From Candidatus Limimonas coprohippi (GTDB lineage Bacteria > Bacillota > Clostridia > Oscillospirales > Acutalibacteraceae), in contig JAGHSI010000045.1 in NCBI GenBank assembly GCA_018065925.1, positions 1 through 33,229 of the forward strand: a stretch of DNA of 33,229 bases, in the 5' to 3' direction. Made by a program: the position numbers and the translations under genes. Shown piece by piece: positions 10,940 to 22,284 of the stretch (its first letter is position 1; each line of letters starts with the position of its first letter). Below the pieces are notes generated by a model that worked only from the letters and a program-made list of their open reading frames with translations, ran no database searches and was not told where the DNA came from.

Positions 10940-13270
10940 ATGAAACAGATGCTTTGCGTAAGATGCAAAAAGAACCCAGCTGTTGTTTTTGTGTCTAAAA
11001 TAGATGGCCCTGATGGCCAACAGCAGGGTGAGCCAGAGGGATACTGCATTAAATGTGCCGCTGAACTCAATATCGGTCCTGTTAAGCAGATGATGGACAA
11101 AATGGGTATTAATCCCGACGACATTGATTCAATTTCTGAGCAATTTAGTTCTCTCATGGGATTCAATGATGATGCAGATGATTTTGAAACAGGCGGTTCT
11201 CCATCAATGCCGGACCTCTCGAGCCTTTTCGGTGCACTTGGCAACTTTGGAGGAGCACTTCAAAATGATCCAGACATGGTTGTTTCAAAGAAACCGGAAG
11301 AAGAGAACAATAAAAAAGAACGCCGCAGAAAGCGTGGGGAGAAAGGCGACAGAAAAAAGCGCCGTTATCTCGGCACTTATTGCACGGATCTCACTGAGAA
11401 GGCAAGGGATGGCAAACTTGATGCCATCATTGGCCGTGATCAGGAAATCAGCCGTGCTGTACAGATTCTCTGTCGCCGTTCAAAGAACAATCCTTGCCTC
11501 ATCGGTGAACCTGGTGTAGGTAAAACTGCTATTGCAGAGGGTCTTGCTCTTAGGATTGCGTCTGGCGATGTTCCTGCAAAACTTAAGGATAAGGAAATTC
11601 ACTTACTTGATTTGACTGCACTCGTTGCTGGTACACAGTTCCGTGGGCAGTTTGAGAGCCGTATAAAGGGTCTTATTGAGGAAGTTAAAAAAGAGGGAAA
11701 TATCATTCTCTTTATAGATGAGGTGCATAATCTCGTTGGTACAGGCGATTCTGAAGGTACTATGAATGCTGCCAATATCTTGAAACCAGCTCTCTCTCGT
11801 GGTGAGATTCAGGTTATTGGTGCTACAACGTTCACAGAGTATAGAAAGCATATTGAAAAAGATGCCGCTTTAGAACGACGTTTCCAGCCAATTAAAATTG
11901 ATGAGCCATCAATTGAACAGACTTATGAAGTTCTCTGTGGCATTAAGTCATATTATGAGAACTATCACAGAGTAAAGATTTCTGACTCACTTGTTCACAG
12001 AGCAGTTGTACTCTCTGAACGCTATATTACTGATCGTTTCCTCCCTGATAAGGCTATTGACCTTCTTGATGAGGCTTGTACTTGTGCAAACCTTAGAAAC
12101 AAGGCGATTTCAGAAGCTGAAATCATGGAGAAGGAACTCGCAGATGCAAAGCTTGACCTTCAAGATATGGAGGAAGAAACTGAGGATCCTGATTACGAGG
12201 AACAGGCTAAGACAAAGGCAGAAATTTTAGCTTTTGAGCAGAAACTTCCAGAACTTCAAAAGGCTGCATCAGATAATGAAGTGAAAGAGGAGGACCTTGC
12301 AAAGGTTATTCACCTTTGGACGGGCATTCCGGCAGCAAAAGTTATTGAATCTGACCTTAAAAAGCTTGCTGACCTTGAGGAGAACCTCAAGGCGCACGTA
12401 AAAGGTCAGGACGAAGCTATTCGCGCTGTTGCTGCCGCAGTTAAACGTTCACGTATTCAAATAAATTCACGTAGACGTCCTGCGTCATTCATATTTGTAG
12501 GACCTACAGGTGTAGGTAAGACTGAACTTGTAAAACGTCTCTCTATGGAACTCTTTGATACACCAGAGACTCTTATTCGTCTTGATATGTCTGAGTTCAT
12601 GGAGAAGCATAGTGTCTCAAGAATTATTGGCTCACCTCCAGGATATGTTGGCTACGACGAGGCAGGCCAACTTACTGAGAAGGTTCGCCGTAAACCTTAC
12701 TCTGTAATTCTTTTCGATGAGATTGAAAAGGCGCATCCAGATGTTATGAATATACTTCTTCAGATTCTTGATGAGGGAAAAATCAACGATGCGCAGGGTA
12801 GAACTGTTAACTTTGAAAACACTGTAATTATTATGACCTCTAATGCTGGCTCAGACCGCCGTGAAAACGCTTTGGGATTTGGTAAGACTCAGGATGAGGC
12901 TAATAAGGATAAGGCCATGAAGGCTCTCAAGGACTTCTTAAGACCAGAGTTTATTGGCCGTGTTGATGAAGTTGTTCTATTTAACGATCTCACGGAAGAA
13001 AACTATGCGGATATCGCAAAACTCATGCTTTCAGAGCTTGAAGAACCTCTTCGCGATAAGGGCATTACACTAAAATATGCAGAGGATGTTCCAATGGCTA
13101 TCGTTAAAAAGATGGACTCTGGAGTACGTGGCGCACGTGATCTTCGTAATGTTATTAGAAGGAATATTGAGGATAAAATTGCTGATATTATTATTGAGGC
13201 AGATGGTACTCCTGTGACATGTATTGAAGTGTCTGTTTCAAACGAAGAAATCGTTGTTAAAAGTTGTTGA
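10940..13270 (+). CDS. ATP-dependent Clp protease ATP-binding subunit (ClpE/ClpC type, N-terminal zinc finger)
   Basis: N-terminal CxxC...CxxC (MLCVRCKK...[10 protein letters not shown]), two AAA+ modules ([30 protein letters not shown]), ClpP-binding-type loop NALGFGK. Confidence 0.92.
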
Positions 13271-13295
13271 CACTCGGCGGTGGGTATGTTAGAAT
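13267..13295 (+). promoter_or_regulatory. Promoter of tRNA cluster (overlaps the clp stop codon)
   Basis: TTGACA (13267-13272), 17-nt spacer, TAGAAT (13290-13295); first tRNA begins at 13314. Confidence 0.75.
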
Positions 13296-13313
13296 ATTCA
13301 CCGTCGCAAAGAT

Positions 13314-13387
13314 GCGGGTGTAGTTCAATGGTAGAATCCCAGCCTTCCAAGCTGGTTGTGTGGGTTCGATTCCCATCACCCGCTCCA
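13314..13387 (+). tRNA. tRNA-Gly (anticodon TCC), CCA encoded
   Basis: Acceptor GCGGGTG/CACCCGC, anticodon loop cTTCCAA, T arm GTGGGTTCGATTCCCAT, 3' CCA. Confidence 0.95.
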
Positions 13388-13403
13388 TTTTTTGCGGATA
13401 TAC

Positions 13404-13480
13404 GCGCTGATAGCTCAGTTGGATAGAGCATCTGCCTTCTAAGCAGAGGGTCGGGGGTTCGAATCCCTTTCAGCGTGCCA
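13404..13480 (+). tRNA. tRNA-Arg (anticodon TCT), CCA encoded
   Basis: Acceptor GCGCTGA/TCAGCGT, anticodon loop cTTCTAA, T loop GGTTCGAATCC, 3' CCA. Confidence 0.95.
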
Positions 13481-13483
13481 TAT

Positions 13484-13561
13484 GGTGGGTATAGCGTAGT
13501 TGGTTAACGCGCAAGTTTGTGGCACTTGAGACCATCGGTTCGAATCCGATTATCCACCCCA
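13484..13561 (+). tRNA. tRNA-His (anticodon GTG), with G-1, CCA encoded
   Basis: G-1:C73 extra pair, acceptor GTGGGTA/TATCCAC, anticodon GTG (tttGTGgc), 3' CCA. Confidence 0.95.
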
Positions 13562-13568
13562 CAAAGCT

Positions 13569-13598
13569 GAAAGGCGGCTAAAAAGCCGCCTTTCTTTT
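13569..13598 (+). terminator. Intrinsic terminator after tRNA-His
   Basis: AAGGCGGCT-aaaa-AGCCGCCTT hairpin followed by TCTTTT. Confidence 0.85.
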
Positions 13599-13605
13599 AA
13601 TATTA

Positions 13606-13680
13606 GGGGATGTCGCCAAGGGGTAAGGCAACGGACTTTGACTCCGTGACTCGTAGGTTCAAATCCTGCCATCCCTGCCA
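13606..13680 (+). tRNA. tRNA-Gln (anticodon TTG), CCA encoded
   Basis: Acceptor GGGGATG/CATCCCT, anticodon stem ACGGA/TCCGT with loop CTTTGAC, T arm TAGGTTCAAATCCTG, 3' CCA. Confidence 0.93.
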
Positions 13681-13724
13681 GATAAAAGAGTCATGCTTTA
13701 TGCGTGGCTCTTTTATCTTTTTTA
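13680..13724 (+). terminator. Intrinsic terminator after tRNA-Gln
   Basis: AGATAAAAGAGtCATGC/GCGTGgCTCTTTTATCT hairpin followed by a T run. Confidence 0.85.
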
Positions 13725-16040: not shown

Positions 16041-16763
16041 ATGAGTGAGAACAAACTAAAGCTTGAGAATAAACTTCATGAAATAGCAAAAGATAATAAA
16101 ATTGCACTCGCTTATTCTGGTGGAGTTGATAGCAGTATATTAAAGACTGTCGCAGAACTTGCTGGGATTGATGTCCTGCCACTTACTTTTGATCTCAGCG
16201 AATCGTTGAAATTAAAAGAGGTTAGGATGAATGATAAGGAGCGTTGTTATTATTGCAAATCACTCATGATGAGCACTTTTAAAAGAATCGCAGCGGAGGC
16301 TGGATATGAGGTTCTCTGTGACGGCACGAATGCCGATGATAGAAAACAGTATAGGCCAGGCCTTCGTGCGCTTGAAGAGAACGGTGTTATAAGCCCTATA
16401 GCCGAAGCTGGTATTACAAAAGAGGAACTTCGTGCTATCGGTAAAGAACTTGGTCTTCCTGTCGCAAGTAAGCCATCATCTCCATGTCTTCTCACTCGTT
16501 TCCCATATGGTACTTTCGTTACTGACGAGATGCTTGATGCTGTTGACAACGCCGAAAGGATTGTAAAAGAGGCGGGATTTGAGGCTTGCCGTGTGCGTGT
16601 TTATGGGGCTTTATCAAAGGTTGAAGTGCCAGTAGAGGAAATTGCTCTCGCACAAAAAGAAAACCTCACAGAGAAGCTCTGTGAGGTACTGAGATCTATA
16701 GGCGTTGAAAAAGTTGATTTTGACCCTAAAGGTCTTAGATCTGGAACTATGGATGAGAATTAG
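16041..16763 (+). CDS. larE: ATP-dependent sulfur transferase LarE
   Basis: PP-loop SGGVDSSILK, RCYYCKSLM, DGTNADDRKQYRPGLRAL, ASKPSSPCLLTRFPYGT. Confidence 0.92.
   Translation: MSENKLKLENKLHEIAKDNKIALAYSGGVDSSILKTVAELAGIDVLPLTFDLSESLKLKEVRMNDKERCYYCKSLMMSTFKRIAAEAGYEVLCDGTNADDRKQYRPGLRALEENGVISPIAEAGITKEELRAIGKELGLPVASKPSSPCLLTRFPYGTFVTDEMLDAVDNAERIVKEAGFEACRVRVYGALSKVEVPVEEIALAQKENLTEKLCEVLRSIGVEKVDFDPKGLRSGTMDEN
16654..16687 (-). terminator. Minus-strand intrinsic terminator for the larB-larC2 operon, inside larE
   Basis: Perfect 11-bp stem ACCTCACAGAG-(3 nt)-CTCTGTGAGGT (16663-16687). On the minus strand it is followed immediately by TTTCTTTTT. Confidence 0.75.
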
Positions 16764-17173
16764 TTTTTATAAATATCATTAATAGAAATATCATTCTCAT
16801 CAGCAAGTCTTTTTACATCTGAATATTCAAGACTGATCTTTTTGATGTCTTCGTATGAGAATTCGTTTGCCTTAACTGTGCCGAACTTTGTCTCTACAGT
16901 TGTTGGCTGTCGATCCATGATAACTCTATCAAGTTCCGAACGTCTCATACCAACAGCGCTTGTATGCTTAAAGATAATCTTAATTAAATCATTTTCCTGC
17001 TCAGGTTTGCACATTACTGAAAGTGCATAAGCTGGGCGGGATTTTTTCATATAAATAGGTGAAAACCAAGCATCTTTTGCACCGGCATCCAGAAGCTTTT
17101 CAAGAGTATAGCCAAGAACTTCGCCGCTACAGTCATCAATGTTTGTCTCAAGGAGAATAATCTTATCAGTCAT
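16760..17173 (-). CDS. larC2: Nickel pincer cofactor biosynthesis protein LarC, C-terminal part only (LarC2)
   Basis: MTDKIILLETNIDDCSGEVLGYTLEKLLDAGAKDAWFSPIYMKKSRPAYALSVMCKP...FKHTSAVGMRR. SD gaaggagg lies in the last codons of larB. Confidence 0.85.
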   Translation of the reverse strand: MTDKIILLETNIDDCSGEVLGYTLEKLLDAGAKDAWFSPIYMKKSRPAYALSVMCKPEQENDLIKIIFKHTSAVGMRRSELDRVIMDRQPTTVETKFGTVKANEFSYEDIKKISLEYSDVKRLADENDISINDIYKN

Positions 17174-17174
17174 A

Positions 17175-17855
17175 TTATTTTCCTCCTTCAACCATGGCGT
17201 TTATCTGAGCTGCGCTGTAACCGGCGCCAAAGCCGTTGTCGATGTTGACGACACTTGTTCCCGCAGCACAGGAATTAATCATAGAGAGAAGGGCAGAGAC
17301 GCCTTCAAAGTTGGCGCCGTAACCTATTGATGTAGGAACTGCAATTACTGGTACAGTTACAAGTCCACCGATAACTGTGCAGAGCGCACCTTCCATGCCG
17401 GCAACTGCAACGATAGCAGTTGCTGTTCTAATGTCATCGATTTTATCGAGGAGACGGTGAAGACCGGCAACACCCACATCATAAAACTTCTCTACATTAG
17501 CACCACACATATATGCTGTCACAGCAGCTTCTTCAGCAACAGGGATGTCAGTAGTACCTGCTGTGCAAACAGCAACTTTTCCGACAAGTTTCTCTGGCTC
17601 GCCAATTGTGATACAACGAGCTTGTTCGTGCCATACGGCCTCGGGAATTTCTGCTTTTACAGCCTCATATTGAGCGAGCGTTGCTCTTGTTCCGAGAACA
17701 AGGCCGTTATTCCTGTATAAAGTTTTAAATATTTCTACGCACTGGTCGACTTTTTTGCTCTGACAGAAGACTACTTCTGGAAATCCAGTGCGTCTTTTTC
17801 TGTCAAGATCAAGGCAAGCAAAGTCGCCAACTGCTTCATACATCTTATCTGACAT
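17175..17855 (-). CDS. larB: Nickel pincer cofactor biosynthesis protein LarB
   Basis: AIR-carboxylase-like: AVCTAGTTDIPVAEEAAVTAYMCGANVEKFYDVGVAGLHRLL, VVAVAGMEGALCTVIGGLVTVPVIAVPTSIGYG. Confidence 0.92.
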   Translation of the reverse strand: MSDKMYEAVGDFACLDLDRKRRTGFPEVVFCQSKKVDQCVEIFKTLYRNNGLVLGTRATLAQYEAVKAEIPEAVWHEQARCITIGEPEKLVGKVAVCTAGTTDIPVAEEAAVTAYMCGANVEKFYDVGVAGLHRLLDKIDDIRTATAIVAVAGMEGALCTVIGGLVTVPVIAVPTSIGYGANFEGVSALLSMINSCAAGTSVVNIDNGFGAGYSAAQINAMVEGGK

Positions 17856-17865
17856 AGGTCTTCTC

Positions 17866-18543
17866 CTAGTTTATGATATAAATGCCGGATGATAAAACTA
17901 CTACTTCTTGACCTGCCACACGGAGGTAACGAAGTACTGGCTCTTCAAATTTTTTGTAGTCAGTAGTTATGTAGTTGTCAAGCGAGATTCTTTTGATAGC
18001 TTGTGCGTTTTTACAGCAGACATAAAGATCATTTCCAATACGACTGACAGACATTGGCCTGCCAATGTCTGTAGTTGCTGCGCCACCGATTCTAAAGTCG
18101 ATTCGCTGAAGCTTCTTTGAATAGCGAACGACAGCGTTCTGGTCGGGTACGCAGCACCAAATGCAACTGTCCTCAGGTGCACAACTACGAACTGAACAGT
18201 CGTGGTAGGAGAGGTCCCCTGTCCAAATAAGTGTTCCGTTATAGTCAAATATGCCGATTTCACCTGTAGGATAAACAACGTTGATAAATCCTTCAGGACC
18301 TTCGCATACTGTGCAAGTGAGGTAGTCTTTTACCTGCTGAATTATTTCTACATATCCGCGTCCGAACTTATACTGAGCATAGAAGTTCTTTTTAACCTTT
18401 TGAACTTTGTGTGTAGTGAAGTTAAAGAAGCGGAATGCAACATTTATTCTTCCTCTCTCGTCACGACCATCTGGAATAGCTATAATAAAGCCTTCTGGAT
18501 GTGGCACGATGTCAAGAGGAGTACGACTCATTAATTGTTTCAT
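17866..18543 (-). CDS. Uncharacterised Cys-rich, probably beta-propeller-like protein
   Basis: 225-aa ORF with SD, overlapping the rex stop by 4 nt. Contains TCTVCEG, DCSVRSCAPEDSCIWCC and YVCCKN; no family recognised. Confidence 0.7.
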   Translation of the reverse strand: MKQLMSRTPLDIVPHPEGFIIAIPDGRDERGRINVAFRFFNFTTHKVQKVKKNFYAQYKFGRGYVEIIQQVKDYLTCTVCEGPEGFINVVYPTGEIGIFDYNGTLIWTGDLSYHDCSVRSCAPEDSCIWCCVPDQNAVVRYSKKLQRIDFRIGGAATTDIGRPMSVSRIGNDLYVCCKNAQAIKRISLDNYITTDYKKFEEPVLRYLRVAGQEVVVLSSGIYIIN

Positions 18544-19175
18544 TTCGAATTAATCACCTGATAGCAAAGTGTCATAAGGCTATCGTTGAAGTGCATGTTC
18601 TCAACGATAACTCTTGGATATTTTTCATTGATATTATAGTGCGAGAAGTTCCAAAAACCTTTAATTCCACAATTTTCAACATAGAGTTCGATGTTCTCAA
18701 CAGCTTCATTGTAAGGAATACAAAGAATGGCAACTTCTACGTCGTTCTCTTTACAGAAATCTTCAATGTCAGAAGCAGGACGAATTGGAAGACCACGGAG
18801 TACTTGGCCTGAAAGAGCTTCTTTCTTGTCAAATACACCGATGAGATCAAAGCCACGGGCGTTGAAGTCCATCTGAAGTGCGAGGGCACGACCGAGATTT
18901 CCGGCGCCGATAAGAATAGTCTTAAGGCCAGAATCTACACCGAGAATTTTGCCGATTTCCTTCTGAAGACAATCGATGTTATATCCATATCCTTGCTGGC
19001 CAAAACCGCCGAAACAGTTTAAGTCCTGACGAATCTGTGATGCTGAGAGTCCCATTCTATCTGCAAGTTCACGGCTTGAAATTCTTACCATACCGGCATT
19101 CTTTAAAATGCCAAGGAAACGGTAGTAACGTGGAAGTCTTTTAATTACTGAAATCGAAATGTACTTTGAACCCAT
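18540..19175 (-). CDS. rex: Redox-sensing transcriptional repressor Rex
   Basis: SVIKRLPRYYRFLGIL, SSRELADRMGLSASQIRQDLNCFGGFGQQGYGYN, GAGNLGRALA. Start at 19175 chosen because of SD gaggtg. Confidence 0.95.
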   Translation of the reverse strand: MGSKYISISVIKRLPRYYRFLGILKNAGMVRISSRELADRMGLSASQIRQDLNCFGGFGQQGYGYNIDCLQKEIGKILGVDSGLKTILIGAGNLGRALALQMDFNARGFDLIGVFDKKEALSGQVLRGLPIRPASDIEDFCKENDVEVAILCIPYNEAVENIELYVENCGIKGFWNFSHYNINEKYPRVIVENMHFNDSLMTLCYQVINSK

Positions 19176-19185
19176 TTTTAACACC

Positions 19186-20352
19186 TCATACTTCAAGAGA
19201 CTTTACTGTCTCCATTACATAATTTCCAAATTCTTCACATGAAGCACCATCTTTATGACCGGTGATAACAACCTTTTTCTTTGTCTCAAGGCATATGTTC
19301 ATTGCTTTTGCGAGAAGGTCCGCTTTTTCACTATAGCCGATGTGACGGAGAAGCATTTCTGTTGCTTTAAACATTGAAGCAGGATTTGCATAAGCGCCGT
19401 CGCCACGTTCAATCATTCTTGGTGCTGAACCGTGAATTGCCTCAAACATAGCATAGTGATCACCGATGTTTGCAGAACCTGCTGTACCAACACCACCCTG
19501 AATCTGTGCTGCTTCATCTGTTATGATATCGCCATAGAGGTTAGGGAGGACAACGACCTGGAACTTTGAACGCTTTTCAGTGTTTACAAGGTTTGCGGTC
19601 ATGATGTCAATGAACCATTCCTCAGCTTCAATTCCTGGGTATTCGGCTGCGATTTCATGAGCAATCTTTGAAAATTTGCCATCGGTCTTTTTCATGATAT
19701 TTGCTTTTGTTACGATAGCGACATTTGTCTTACCGTTGTTCTTTGCATAATCAAAAGCTGCACGTACAATACGCTTGGTGCCGAGATCTGTAGTTACTTT
19801 AAAATCAAAAGCAAGTTTTTCGGGAATTTCGATACCCTTTGAACCGAGAACATACTCACCTTCGGTGTTCTCTCTATAGAAGACCCAATCAATACCCTCA
19901 GAAGGAACTGAGACTGGGCGAACGTTGGCATAGAGGTCGAGTTCACGACGCATTGCAACATTTGCACTTTCCATAGTTCCACCAGTTGGTGTTGTTGTAG
20001 GACCTTTTAAAATTACTGGACAAGTTTTAAGAAGGGCAAGTACATCATCTGGGATGGCTTTGCCACAGGCAAGGCGGTTTTCGATTGTGAGACCGTCGAT
20101 GTCAACGAATTTTATCTTTCCGGCAGCGACGTCATCCTCAAGCATAAAACGAAGAAGACGCTCTGCTTCCTTTGAGATGATAGGGCCGATGCCGTCACCA
20201 CCGCAGATACCAATACGTATCTCAGGGAGAGTAGAAAAATCAACCTTAGAAGTATCTGCTGCCATCTTGTCGCAACGTTCGAGCTGGTCGCAGAGGAGAT
20301 TTTTAAAATGCTCTACTGCAGCTTCAACTGCAGGAGTGTTTTCATAACCCAT
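19186..20352 (-). CDS. icd: Isocitrate/isopropylmalate dehydrogenase family, probable isocitrate dehydrogenase
   Basis: GICGGDGIGPIISKEA, GPTTTPTGGTMESANVAMRRELDLYANVRPV, YRENTEGEY; adjacent to aconitase. Confidence 0.88.
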   Translation of the reverse strand: MGYENTPAVEAAVEHFKNLLCDQLERCDKMAADTSKVDFSTLPEIRIGICGGDGIGPIISKEAERLLRFMLEDDVAAGKIKFVDIDGLTIENRLACGKAIPDDVLALLKTCPVILKGPTTTPTGGTMESANVAMRRELDLYANVRPVSVPSEGIDWVFYRENTEGEYVLGSKGIEIPEKLAFDFKVTTDLGTKRIVRAAFDYAKNNGKTNVAIVTKANIMKKTDGKFSKIAHEIAAEYPGIEAEEWFIDIMTANLVNTEKRSKFQVVVLPNLYGDIITDEAAQIQGGVGTAGSANIGDHYAMFEAIHGSAPRMIERGDGAYANPASMFKATEMLLRHIGYSEKADLLAKAMNICLETKKKVVITGHKDGASCEEFGNYVMETVKSLEV

Positions 20353-20355
20353 AGT

Positions 20356-22284
20356 TTATTTGTTTCCTTTCGTAAACTGGAGAAGGTCGCCAGCTTTTAA
20401 GATTTCTTTCTGTCTATCTGTGAAGATGCCAACAAGAGGAATTTCGATGTTCTTTGTCTCATTAACAAGGACAAATTTGCCGGAGTCAAGTGACTCGAAG
20501 ATGTTCTTTAAGATGAGAGAATCAGTCTGATCAATCTTGTCGTAATCATCTGGGTTTTCGAATGTCAATGGCATAATGCCTGCGTTGATGAGGTTTGCTG
20601 CGTGGATACGAGCAAAACTCTTTGTAATAACGGCTTTTATGCCAAGGTAGAGAGGAACGAGAGCAGCGTGCTCACGAGATGAGCCCTGTCCGTAGTTCGC
20701 ACCACCGATGATGAATCCTTTGCCAGCAGCTTTACAGTTCTCTGCGAATTGCTCATCACACTGTCTAAAGCAGAACTGGGAGAGGAAAGGAATGTTTGAA
20801 CGATAAGGGAGAATCTTTGCGCCTGCAGGCATGATGTGGTCAGTTGTTATGTTGTCACCAACTTTTAAGATGGCAGGAGCTTTAATCTCGTCAGTTAAAA
20901 CGTTTGAGTCTGGGAATGGCTTAATGTTTGGACCATAGAGTACTTCAACTGCGCCTGCTTCTTCTGGAGTAGCAGGAAGTTCAACCATATTATCGTTTAT
21001 AAGGAACTTCTCAGGCATCAAGATGTGAAGTGGCTCTCCGAGCTCACGCGGATCTGTGAGAACGCCAGTGAGGGCAGAAGCAGCAGCTACTTCAGGGCTC
21101 ACGAGGTAGATACCTGCGTCAGCAGTACCCGAACGGCCTTCAAAGTTTCTGTTAAATGTACGGAGTGAAATACCAGCACTATTTGGTGACTGTCCCATAC
21201 CGATACAAGGACCACAAGCTGATTCGAGCACACGCGCGCCAGCATCGATGATGTCTGTAAGTGCACCGCAGGTTGCAAGCATAGAGAGAACCTGCTTTGA
21301 ACCAGGTGCGATAGCAAGGCTTACATTTGGAGCAACTTTCTTACCTTTGAGGATGGCTGCAACCTTGAGCATATCTGAGAGGGAAGAGTTGGTGCAGGAG
21401 CCAATGCAGACCTGATCAACTTTAATCTTTCCGATATCTTTAACCTTACGTACGTTGTCTGGCATATGAGGCATGGCTGCCATTGGCTCGAGCGCTGACA
21501 AGTCAATGTCGATAACCTCATCATATATAGCATCCTCGTCAGCGAGTAGCTCGGTCCAGTCGGAACCTCTGCCCTGAGCCTCGAGGAAGGCTTTTGTAAT
21601 CTCATCAGAAGGGAAGATAGATGTTGTAGCACCGAGCTCTGCACCCATGTTTGTAATAGTTGCACGCTCAGGTACAGAGAGTGTTTTAACGCCAGGACCT
21701 TGGTATTCAATAATCTTACCAACGCCACCCTTAACACTCATAATTCTGAGCACCTCAAGGATTACATCCTTTGCGGCTACATATGGTTGAAGTTCACCAG
21801 TGAGGTTAACTTTTACCATCTTAGGCATGGTTATATAGTACTCGCCGCCACCCATGGCAACGGCAACGTCGAGACCACCAGCGCCCATAGCGAGCATACC
21901 GATACCGCCACCTGTAGGTGTGTGGCTATCAGAACCGATGAGAGTCTTTCCTGGAATACCAAAACGTTCTAAATGTACCTGGTGGCAGATGCCGTTGCCA
22001 GGACGTGAAAAACGAACGCCGCGTTTTTTGCACACGCTTTGAATAAAGCGGTGATCATCAGCGTTCTCAAAACCTGTTTGAAGGGTGTTGTGATCAATAT
22101 AAGCTACTGAGAGTTCGGTTTTAACTCTGTCGATACCCATGGCCTCGAGTTCAAGATATGCCATAGTACCTGTAGCATCCTGTGTAAGAGTTTGGTCGAT
22201 ACGAATTCCAATTTCGTTACCGGCCTTCATTTCACCTGTAACAAGGTGATTACTAATGATTTTTTGACTTAATGTCTGTCCCAA
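20356..22284 (-). CDS. acn: Aconitate hydratase (TTG start)
   Basis: GSDSHTPTGGGIGMLAMGAGGLDVAVAMGG, IGSCTNSSLSDM, ACGPCIGMGQSP, GSSREHAAL. TTG start with SD aaaggag. Confidence 0.92.
   Translation of the reverse strand: MGQTLSQKIISNHLVTGEMKAGNEIGIRIDQTLTQDATGTMAYLELEAMGIDRVKTELSVAYIDHNTLQTGFENADDHRFIQSVCKKRGVRFSRPGNGICHQVHLERFGIPGKTLIGSDSHTPTGGGIGMLAMGAGGLDVAVAMGGGEYYITMPKMVKVNLTGELQPYVAAKDVILEVLRIMSVKGGVGKIIEYQGPGVKTLSVPERATITNMGAELGATTSIFPSDEITKAFLEAQGRGSDWTELLADEDAIYDEVIDIDLSALEPMAAMPHMPDNVRKVKDIGKIKVDQVCIGSCTNSSLSDMLKVAAILKGKKVAPNVSLAIAPGSKQVLSMLATCGALTDIIDAGARVLESACGPCIGMGQSPNSAGISLRTFNRNFEGRSGTADAGIYLVSPEVAAASALTGVLTDPRELGEPLHILMPEKFLINDNMVELPATPEEAGAVEVLYGPNIKPFPDSNVLTDEIKAPAILKVGDNITTDHIMPAGAKILPYRSNIPFLSQFCFRQCDEQFAENCKAAGKGFIIGGANYGQGSSREHAALVPLYLGIKAVITKSFARIHAANLINAGIMPLTFENPDDYDKIDQTDSLILKNIFESLDSGKFVLVNETKNIEIPLVGIFTDRQKEILKAGDLLQFTKGNK

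Follow-up and report, generated by a model that had tools for sequence, protein, structure and literature searches.

A predicted intrinsic terminator for larB-larC2 lies within the coding sequence of the convergent gene larE

Overlaps between convergent genes require Rho-independent terminators to lie within coding sequence, as was set out in a 2007 analysis in Biology Direct (PMC2174442). Among 58 convergent overlaps in E. coli, one gene uses an in-coding terminator in 19 and both genes do so in 2, giving at least one such terminator in 21 of the 58 (PMC2174442). A case that has been studied experimentally is mscL/arfA of E. coli, in which the 64-nt 3' untranslated region (UTR) of mscL overlaps the 3' coding sequence of arfA and the two mRNAs have complementary ends (PMC10070815). 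The excludon, or overlapping 3' UTR, concept likewise describes convergent 3' ends that overlap, often with termination sites in the coding sequence of the neighbour (PMC7154746). Convergent genes may also share an intergenic bidirectional terminator, as described for Z. mobilis (PMC7566282) and, as cited there, for E. coli.

The predicted terminator described here, within larE, is of a kind already known, given the E. coli analysis (PMC2174442) and the mscL/arfA pair (PMC10070815). As with the E. coli in-coding terminators, the gene overlap forces the signal into the coding sequence of the partner; the E. coli counts were predictions made without orthologous comparison, however, whereas here a single locus is followed across gene arrangements and the frequency is high (8 of 10 gapless pairs) in a clade that lacks Rho. 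The comparative evidence and this frequency are what the present analysis adds. An antisense regulatory role was tested for mscL/arfA, while the mRNA overlap of larE/larC2 is a prediction from sequence; reciprocal regulation is a trait of the excludon, with which larE/larC2 would share the overlap, as judged from its geometry. The hairpin and U-tract chemistry is that of the intergenic bidirectional terminators, which prevail in this genus (42 of 45 gapped convergent pairs have a hairpin between the genes). The larE element differs from them in being unidirectional and in its position within a coding sequence.

The window, that is, the whole stretch of 33,229 nt that was analysed, contains larE on the plus strand (16041-16763), predicted to encode a LarE-type ATP-dependent sulfur transferase. 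The ORF has an N-terminal HUP-type ATP-binding fold (Pfam) and orthologs in 10 of the 11 genus genomes, and its identity as LarE was assigned via the conserved neighbours larB and larC2. Facing it on the minus strand is larC2 (16760-17191), which corresponds to the C-terminal portion of LarC, the nickel insertion protein (PF01969 positions 237-375, E 7e-48), and is preceded in the same transcript by the AIR carboxylase-like larB (17175-17855; PF00731, E 1e-14). The rest of the likely operon, identified by ORFs and Pfam, occupies 17866-22284 of the minus strand and encodes a 225-aa protein, the Rex repressor, isocitrate dehydrogenase and aconitase. All six genes are tightly packed: they overlap or stand no more than about 10 nt apart. 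From 22.3 kb down to 16.69 kb a scan gave no site resembling a minus-strand terminator, which makes the hairpin in larE the first candidate for the end of the entire minus-strand unit. The convergent larE and larC2 overlap at their 3' ends, where the stop codons share 4 nt (16760-16763) and leave no intergenic space. An intergenic terminator is thus impossible, and a terminator for either gene must sit inside the other. Rfam gave no RNA family at the junction.

An earlier note on this DNA had placed a perfect 11-bp stem with a 3-nt loop at 16663-16687, and that exact position was recovered both from the sequence and by an independent terminator scan, which called a minus-strand terminator with 11 pairs, a loop of 3 and the tail TTTCTTTTTG. 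The hairpin spans larE codons N208-V216, and directly after it on the minus strand comes the U-tract TTTCTTTTT (16654-16662), the complement of larE AAA GAA codons, which the note had also described and which has the top U score in the whole window by our own scorer. Read on the plus strand, the region runs AAAAAGAAA (16654-16662), ACCTCACAGAG-AAG-CTCTGTGAGGT (16663-16687) and then ACTGAGATC; as claimed, no T-tract follows the stem on this strand, so the element is not a bidirectional terminator. Six of the 11 bp are G-C, and the stem has a dG of -17.8 kcal/mol (own scorer), among the most stable hairpins of the window; ViennaRNA gave -19.9 kcal/mol for the minus strand and -18.1 kcal/mol, with z = -6.0, for the plus-strand fold. 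The hairpin and U-tract together (16654-16687) lie fully within the larE reading frame. They combine the features of an intrinsic terminator, namely a stable G+C-rich hairpin (about 5-15 bp, short loop), a U-rich tract directly 3' of it and a position past the same-strand unit. The stem had been put some 75-100 nt past the larC2 stop; the placement holds, with distances that measure 73-97 nt.

We conclude that the element is very probably the unidirectional intrinsic (Rho-independent) terminator of the aconitase-icd-rex-(225 aa)-larB-larC2 transcript, lying in codons 205-216 of the convergent larE. That the larB-larC2 transcript would end within larE had been predicted before, and the prediction is strongly supported by orientation, strength, the stop-codon overlap and comparison across the genus. 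In intrinsic termination, a hairpin folds in the nascent RNA and transcription ends in the U-tract that follows it. RNA polymerase reaching this site would be 73 nt beyond the larC2 stop with no ribosome trailing it; because RNA past that stop is untranslated, the hairpin should be able to fold, and folding while the polymerase transcribes the U-tract would produce a minus-strand 3' end near 16654. larE itself should be unaffected, since the plus strand has no U-tract and ribosomes translating larE would open the hairpin. In LarE, the hairpin falls in a variable segment that immediately precedes the conserved GLRSGTMDE of the C-terminus, and few protein constraints would therefore act against it. 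With no Rho in the genus (see below), an intrinsic signal would be the expected end of the minus-strand transcript. On the other strand of the window genome, no strong plus-strand terminator was found after larE, the nearest candidate being a hairpin of -14.6 kcal/mol with a weak tail at 17399-17425, so the larE transcript may extend far into larC2-larB. From the layout of the two genes, the larE and larC2 mRNAs would be complementary at their 3' ends over at least about 110 nt.

One alternative is chance: the codons for NLTEKLCEV might happen to form a palindrome beside the AAA-GAA run, without any function on the minus strand. Antisense hairpins of moderate strength followed by a T-tract do arise in this way, as any minus-strand terminator above a moderate threshold was seen in the last 250 nt of larE in 5.8% of 1000 synonymous recodings, and 8 of 532 co-directional gene ends in the genus carry one. 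The observed strength, however, was reached in none of the 1000 recodings (0/1000). A strong minus-strand terminator (dG <= -15, U >= 3) appeared in the last 200 nt of larE in 0.5% of 2000 recodings, and a perfect stem at the ten larE codons has P = 0.0014 under the codon usage of the genome. A chance hairpin would moreover have had to fall at the right distance past larC2, at the only gapless convergent pair in the sample of the window genome, and then to follow gene spacing in the relatives: the stem is kept in G008, replaced by a different one in G006 and present as a mere remnant where the gap has its own terminator. We therefore regard chance as very improbable.

To compare arrangements, larE gene order was determined by tblastn in the 10 genomes with the gene, and a scan was combined with inspection by eye to compare the 3' ends. 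In each of the three larE/larC2 pairs that are convergent and gapless (3/3), those of the window genome (G000), G008 and G006, the 3' end of larE contains a minus-strand terminator. In G008 the genes are convergent and overlapping and the stem is that of the window, with 14 pairs including one G-U, at L080:13526-13556 (-22.8 kcal/mol for the stretch); across the 11 genus genomes the same sequence pattern occurs only at these two orthologous larE sites. G006 is also convergent and overlapping, without a stem at the codons used in the window; a different minus-strand terminator (GTGTCAGAGGAAGTTCTTCCTTTGGCAC TTCAATTTTTGC) lies about 25 nt further into larE, at L083:8962-8989. A plus-strand terminator inside larC2 (L083:9095-9119) accompanies it, so in G006 each gene hosts the signal of the other. 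The convergent genes of G002 lie 46 nt apart, and the gap holds a bidirectional terminator immediately behind the larE stop; larE of G002 shares the left arm and the T-tract codons with the window but not the right arm, and a weak hairpin remnant is left, while the U-tract itself is conserved in both G008 and G002. The scan gave no terminator inside larE in G001, G003, G004, G005, G007 and G009. Four of these (G003, G004, G007 and G009) have larE-larB-larC2 in one direction; in G001 and G005 no larC2 was found adjoining larE, which is followed by its own terminators. The in-larE terminator is thus found in 3/3 gapless convergent arrangements versus 0/7 without overlap (Fisher P = 0.008). In the larE tree, G000, G008 and G002 group together, followed by G006 with G001/G005, with weak basal support, so G002 may have lost the full stem or may never have had it. 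A single stretch of DNA would specify protein on one strand and a transcription stop for the other, and the relatives show its retention, replacement and absence as gene spacing changes.

Two further expectations of the earlier note were borne out in part. Synonymous conservation is raised at the stem, although its strength is suggestive only as a sign of selection on the terminator: G000 and G008 share 14 residues, EEI to LCE, across the T-tract and stem, and all 14 are encoded by identical codons (14/14, compared with 51% over larE), a degree of identity that occurs in 1.2% of 17,439 14-residue windows from 63 ortholog pairs, mostly in three strongly conserved genes. Stem covariation among relatives is limited, with the outermost A-U pair replaced by G-U in G008. 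The different hairpin at neighbouring codons of G006 is stronger evidence. Scans of viral contigs gave no larE relatives, and a scan of genome contigs added one member of the genus, apparently the G006 contig again (L044), together with distant LarE relatives. In G002 the larE reading frame stays open on its upstream side and joins that of a Fic-domain protein which also has a helix-turn-helix (L082:1413-3056, minus strand; 547 aa in total), either a real fusion or the product of a lost stop codon.

The same comparison bears on a role for the hairpin on the plus strand, in which it would pause translation or stabilise the larE mRNA and the minus-strand T-tract would be incidental. The stable plus-strand fold is in keeping with such a role, and long complementary 3' ends could affect RNA stability; nevertheless, the presence of the hairpin tracks gene arrangement, co-directional and lone larE genes have none like it, and in G000, G008 and G006 alike it is the minus-strand side that has the U-tract, all of which makes a plus-strand role highly unlikely. 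It is less probable still that larE lost a stop codon and so took in an old intergenic bidirectional terminator: this seemingly happened at the YfhO/phosphoribosyltransferase pair of G008, where the hairpin encodes codons past the end of the Pfam domain and acts in both directions, and G002 has a bidirectional terminator just after the larE stop, but the larE hairpin is unidirectional and lies upstream of the C-terminal GLRSGTMDE motif common to its closest relatives, both of which favour an origin inside existing coding sequence.

The reading of the larE element as a terminator of the convergent transcript was extended by a survey of nine genus genomes, sampled over about 1.3 Mb in total. Genes were called as simple ORFs, longest first, and supported by similarity or length; a codon-usage gene finder had missed larE. 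Pairs with a gap of at most 20 nt were taken as gapless, and antisense terminators were counted if they fell in the final 250 nt of the partner gene; because the stop codon sets the 3' end of a gene, the gaps are immune to start-site errors. An in-gene antisense terminator was found in 8 of 10 gapless convergent pairs, in 1 of 45 gapped convergent pairs (42 of which have a hairpin in the gap) and, as background, in 8 of 532 co-directional gene ends (1.5%). The differences are significant by Fisher test (8/10 versus 1/45, P = 3e-7; 8/10 versus 8/532, P = 3e-12) and stable over thresholds. Three of the eight positive gapless pairs are larE/larC2 in three species, and in two (L107 and L114) the host ORF has no Pfam match. 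Both partners are backed by Pfam in larE/larC2, YfhO/phosphoribosyltransferase (L091), PucR-type regulator/Cpn60 chaperonin (L122) and a glycerophosphotransferase pair (L138), as well as in dinB/rnhA of G008 (L098), which the support filter left out of the survey. A second pair on L138, GGDEF/FAD oxidase, consists of two real genes, and no terminator was found there.

Judged from these relatives, the predicted in-gene terminator is a real and recurrent answer to lack of space and not a coincidence, and the genus comparison and survey together argue that the larE terminator is kept by selection for termination. The 8/10 frequency against a 1.5% background suggests that, in these Rho-less bacteria, genes that collide have in-gene terminators as a rule. 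Such signals would escape terminator prediction limited to intergenic regions, and optimising the codons of one gene, or deleting it, could disrupt the neighbouring transcript.

Among individual loci, the minus-strand terminator of rnhA lies inside dinB at L098:7970-7997, where the genes overlap by 34 nt. In G005, the terminator of a Cpn60-family chaperonin gene lies inside the convergent PucR-type regulator gene (L122:10710-10747; 41-nt overlap). The bidirectional terminator at L091:15835-15864 of G008 encodes codons near the end of the YfhO-family membrane protein, beyond the Pfam domain, and looks as if it had been absorbed into the gene after loss of a stop codon.

The Rho RNA-binding domain (PF07497) was found in 0 of 11 genus genomes and in 0 of 150 sampled family genomes, all near-complete, whereas 9 of 14 controls gave matches. 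A full-length Rho model gave only sub-threshold matches, which are taken to be related ATPases. In the order, 4 of 197 sampled genomes have PF07497 and 193 lack it. The absence of Rho fits a strong reliance on intrinsic terminators and might be its cause. The Rho-positive relatives G215 and G236 yielded just two convergent pairs that were gapless, and one of the two had an in-gene terminator. A lack of Rho is no guarantee of intrinsic termination: the Rho-less cyanobacterium S. elongatus ends just 22% of its units at intrinsic terminators, and most of its transcripts end otherwise (PMC13289151). Tentatively, and with more doubt than confidence, we suggest a broader scheme: without Rho every transcription unit would need an intrinsic terminator, so convergent genes might overlap only with a terminator in the opposing coding sequence, where the protein would be under dual selection; such terminators might arise anew at variable protein segments when a gap is lost and decay when it returns.

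Elsewhere in the window, a tRNA cluster (Gly-Arg-His-Gln) with two terminators occupies 13314-13718. The hairpin at 13680-13718 is strong and is kept across the genus while its sequence varies. It was considered as an attenuator of the plus-strand operon and rejected; it lies directly 3' of tRNA-Gln and is most simply the tRNA-Gln terminator. A minus-strand ORF at 13003-13431 and the start of a GNAT ORF at 13693 look like artefacts of the tRNA region.

LarC is split in the window genome. larC2 stands beside larB, and LarC1 (PF01969 positions 1-246) is encoded on another contig (G000:C116; L001:1009-2118, minus strand). LarC1 continues at its C-terminus into a metal-sensing repressor domain of the CsoR/RcnR type (PF02583, E 4e-18); this fusion is full-length in most genomes of the genus, and in G004 its two halves match separate places.
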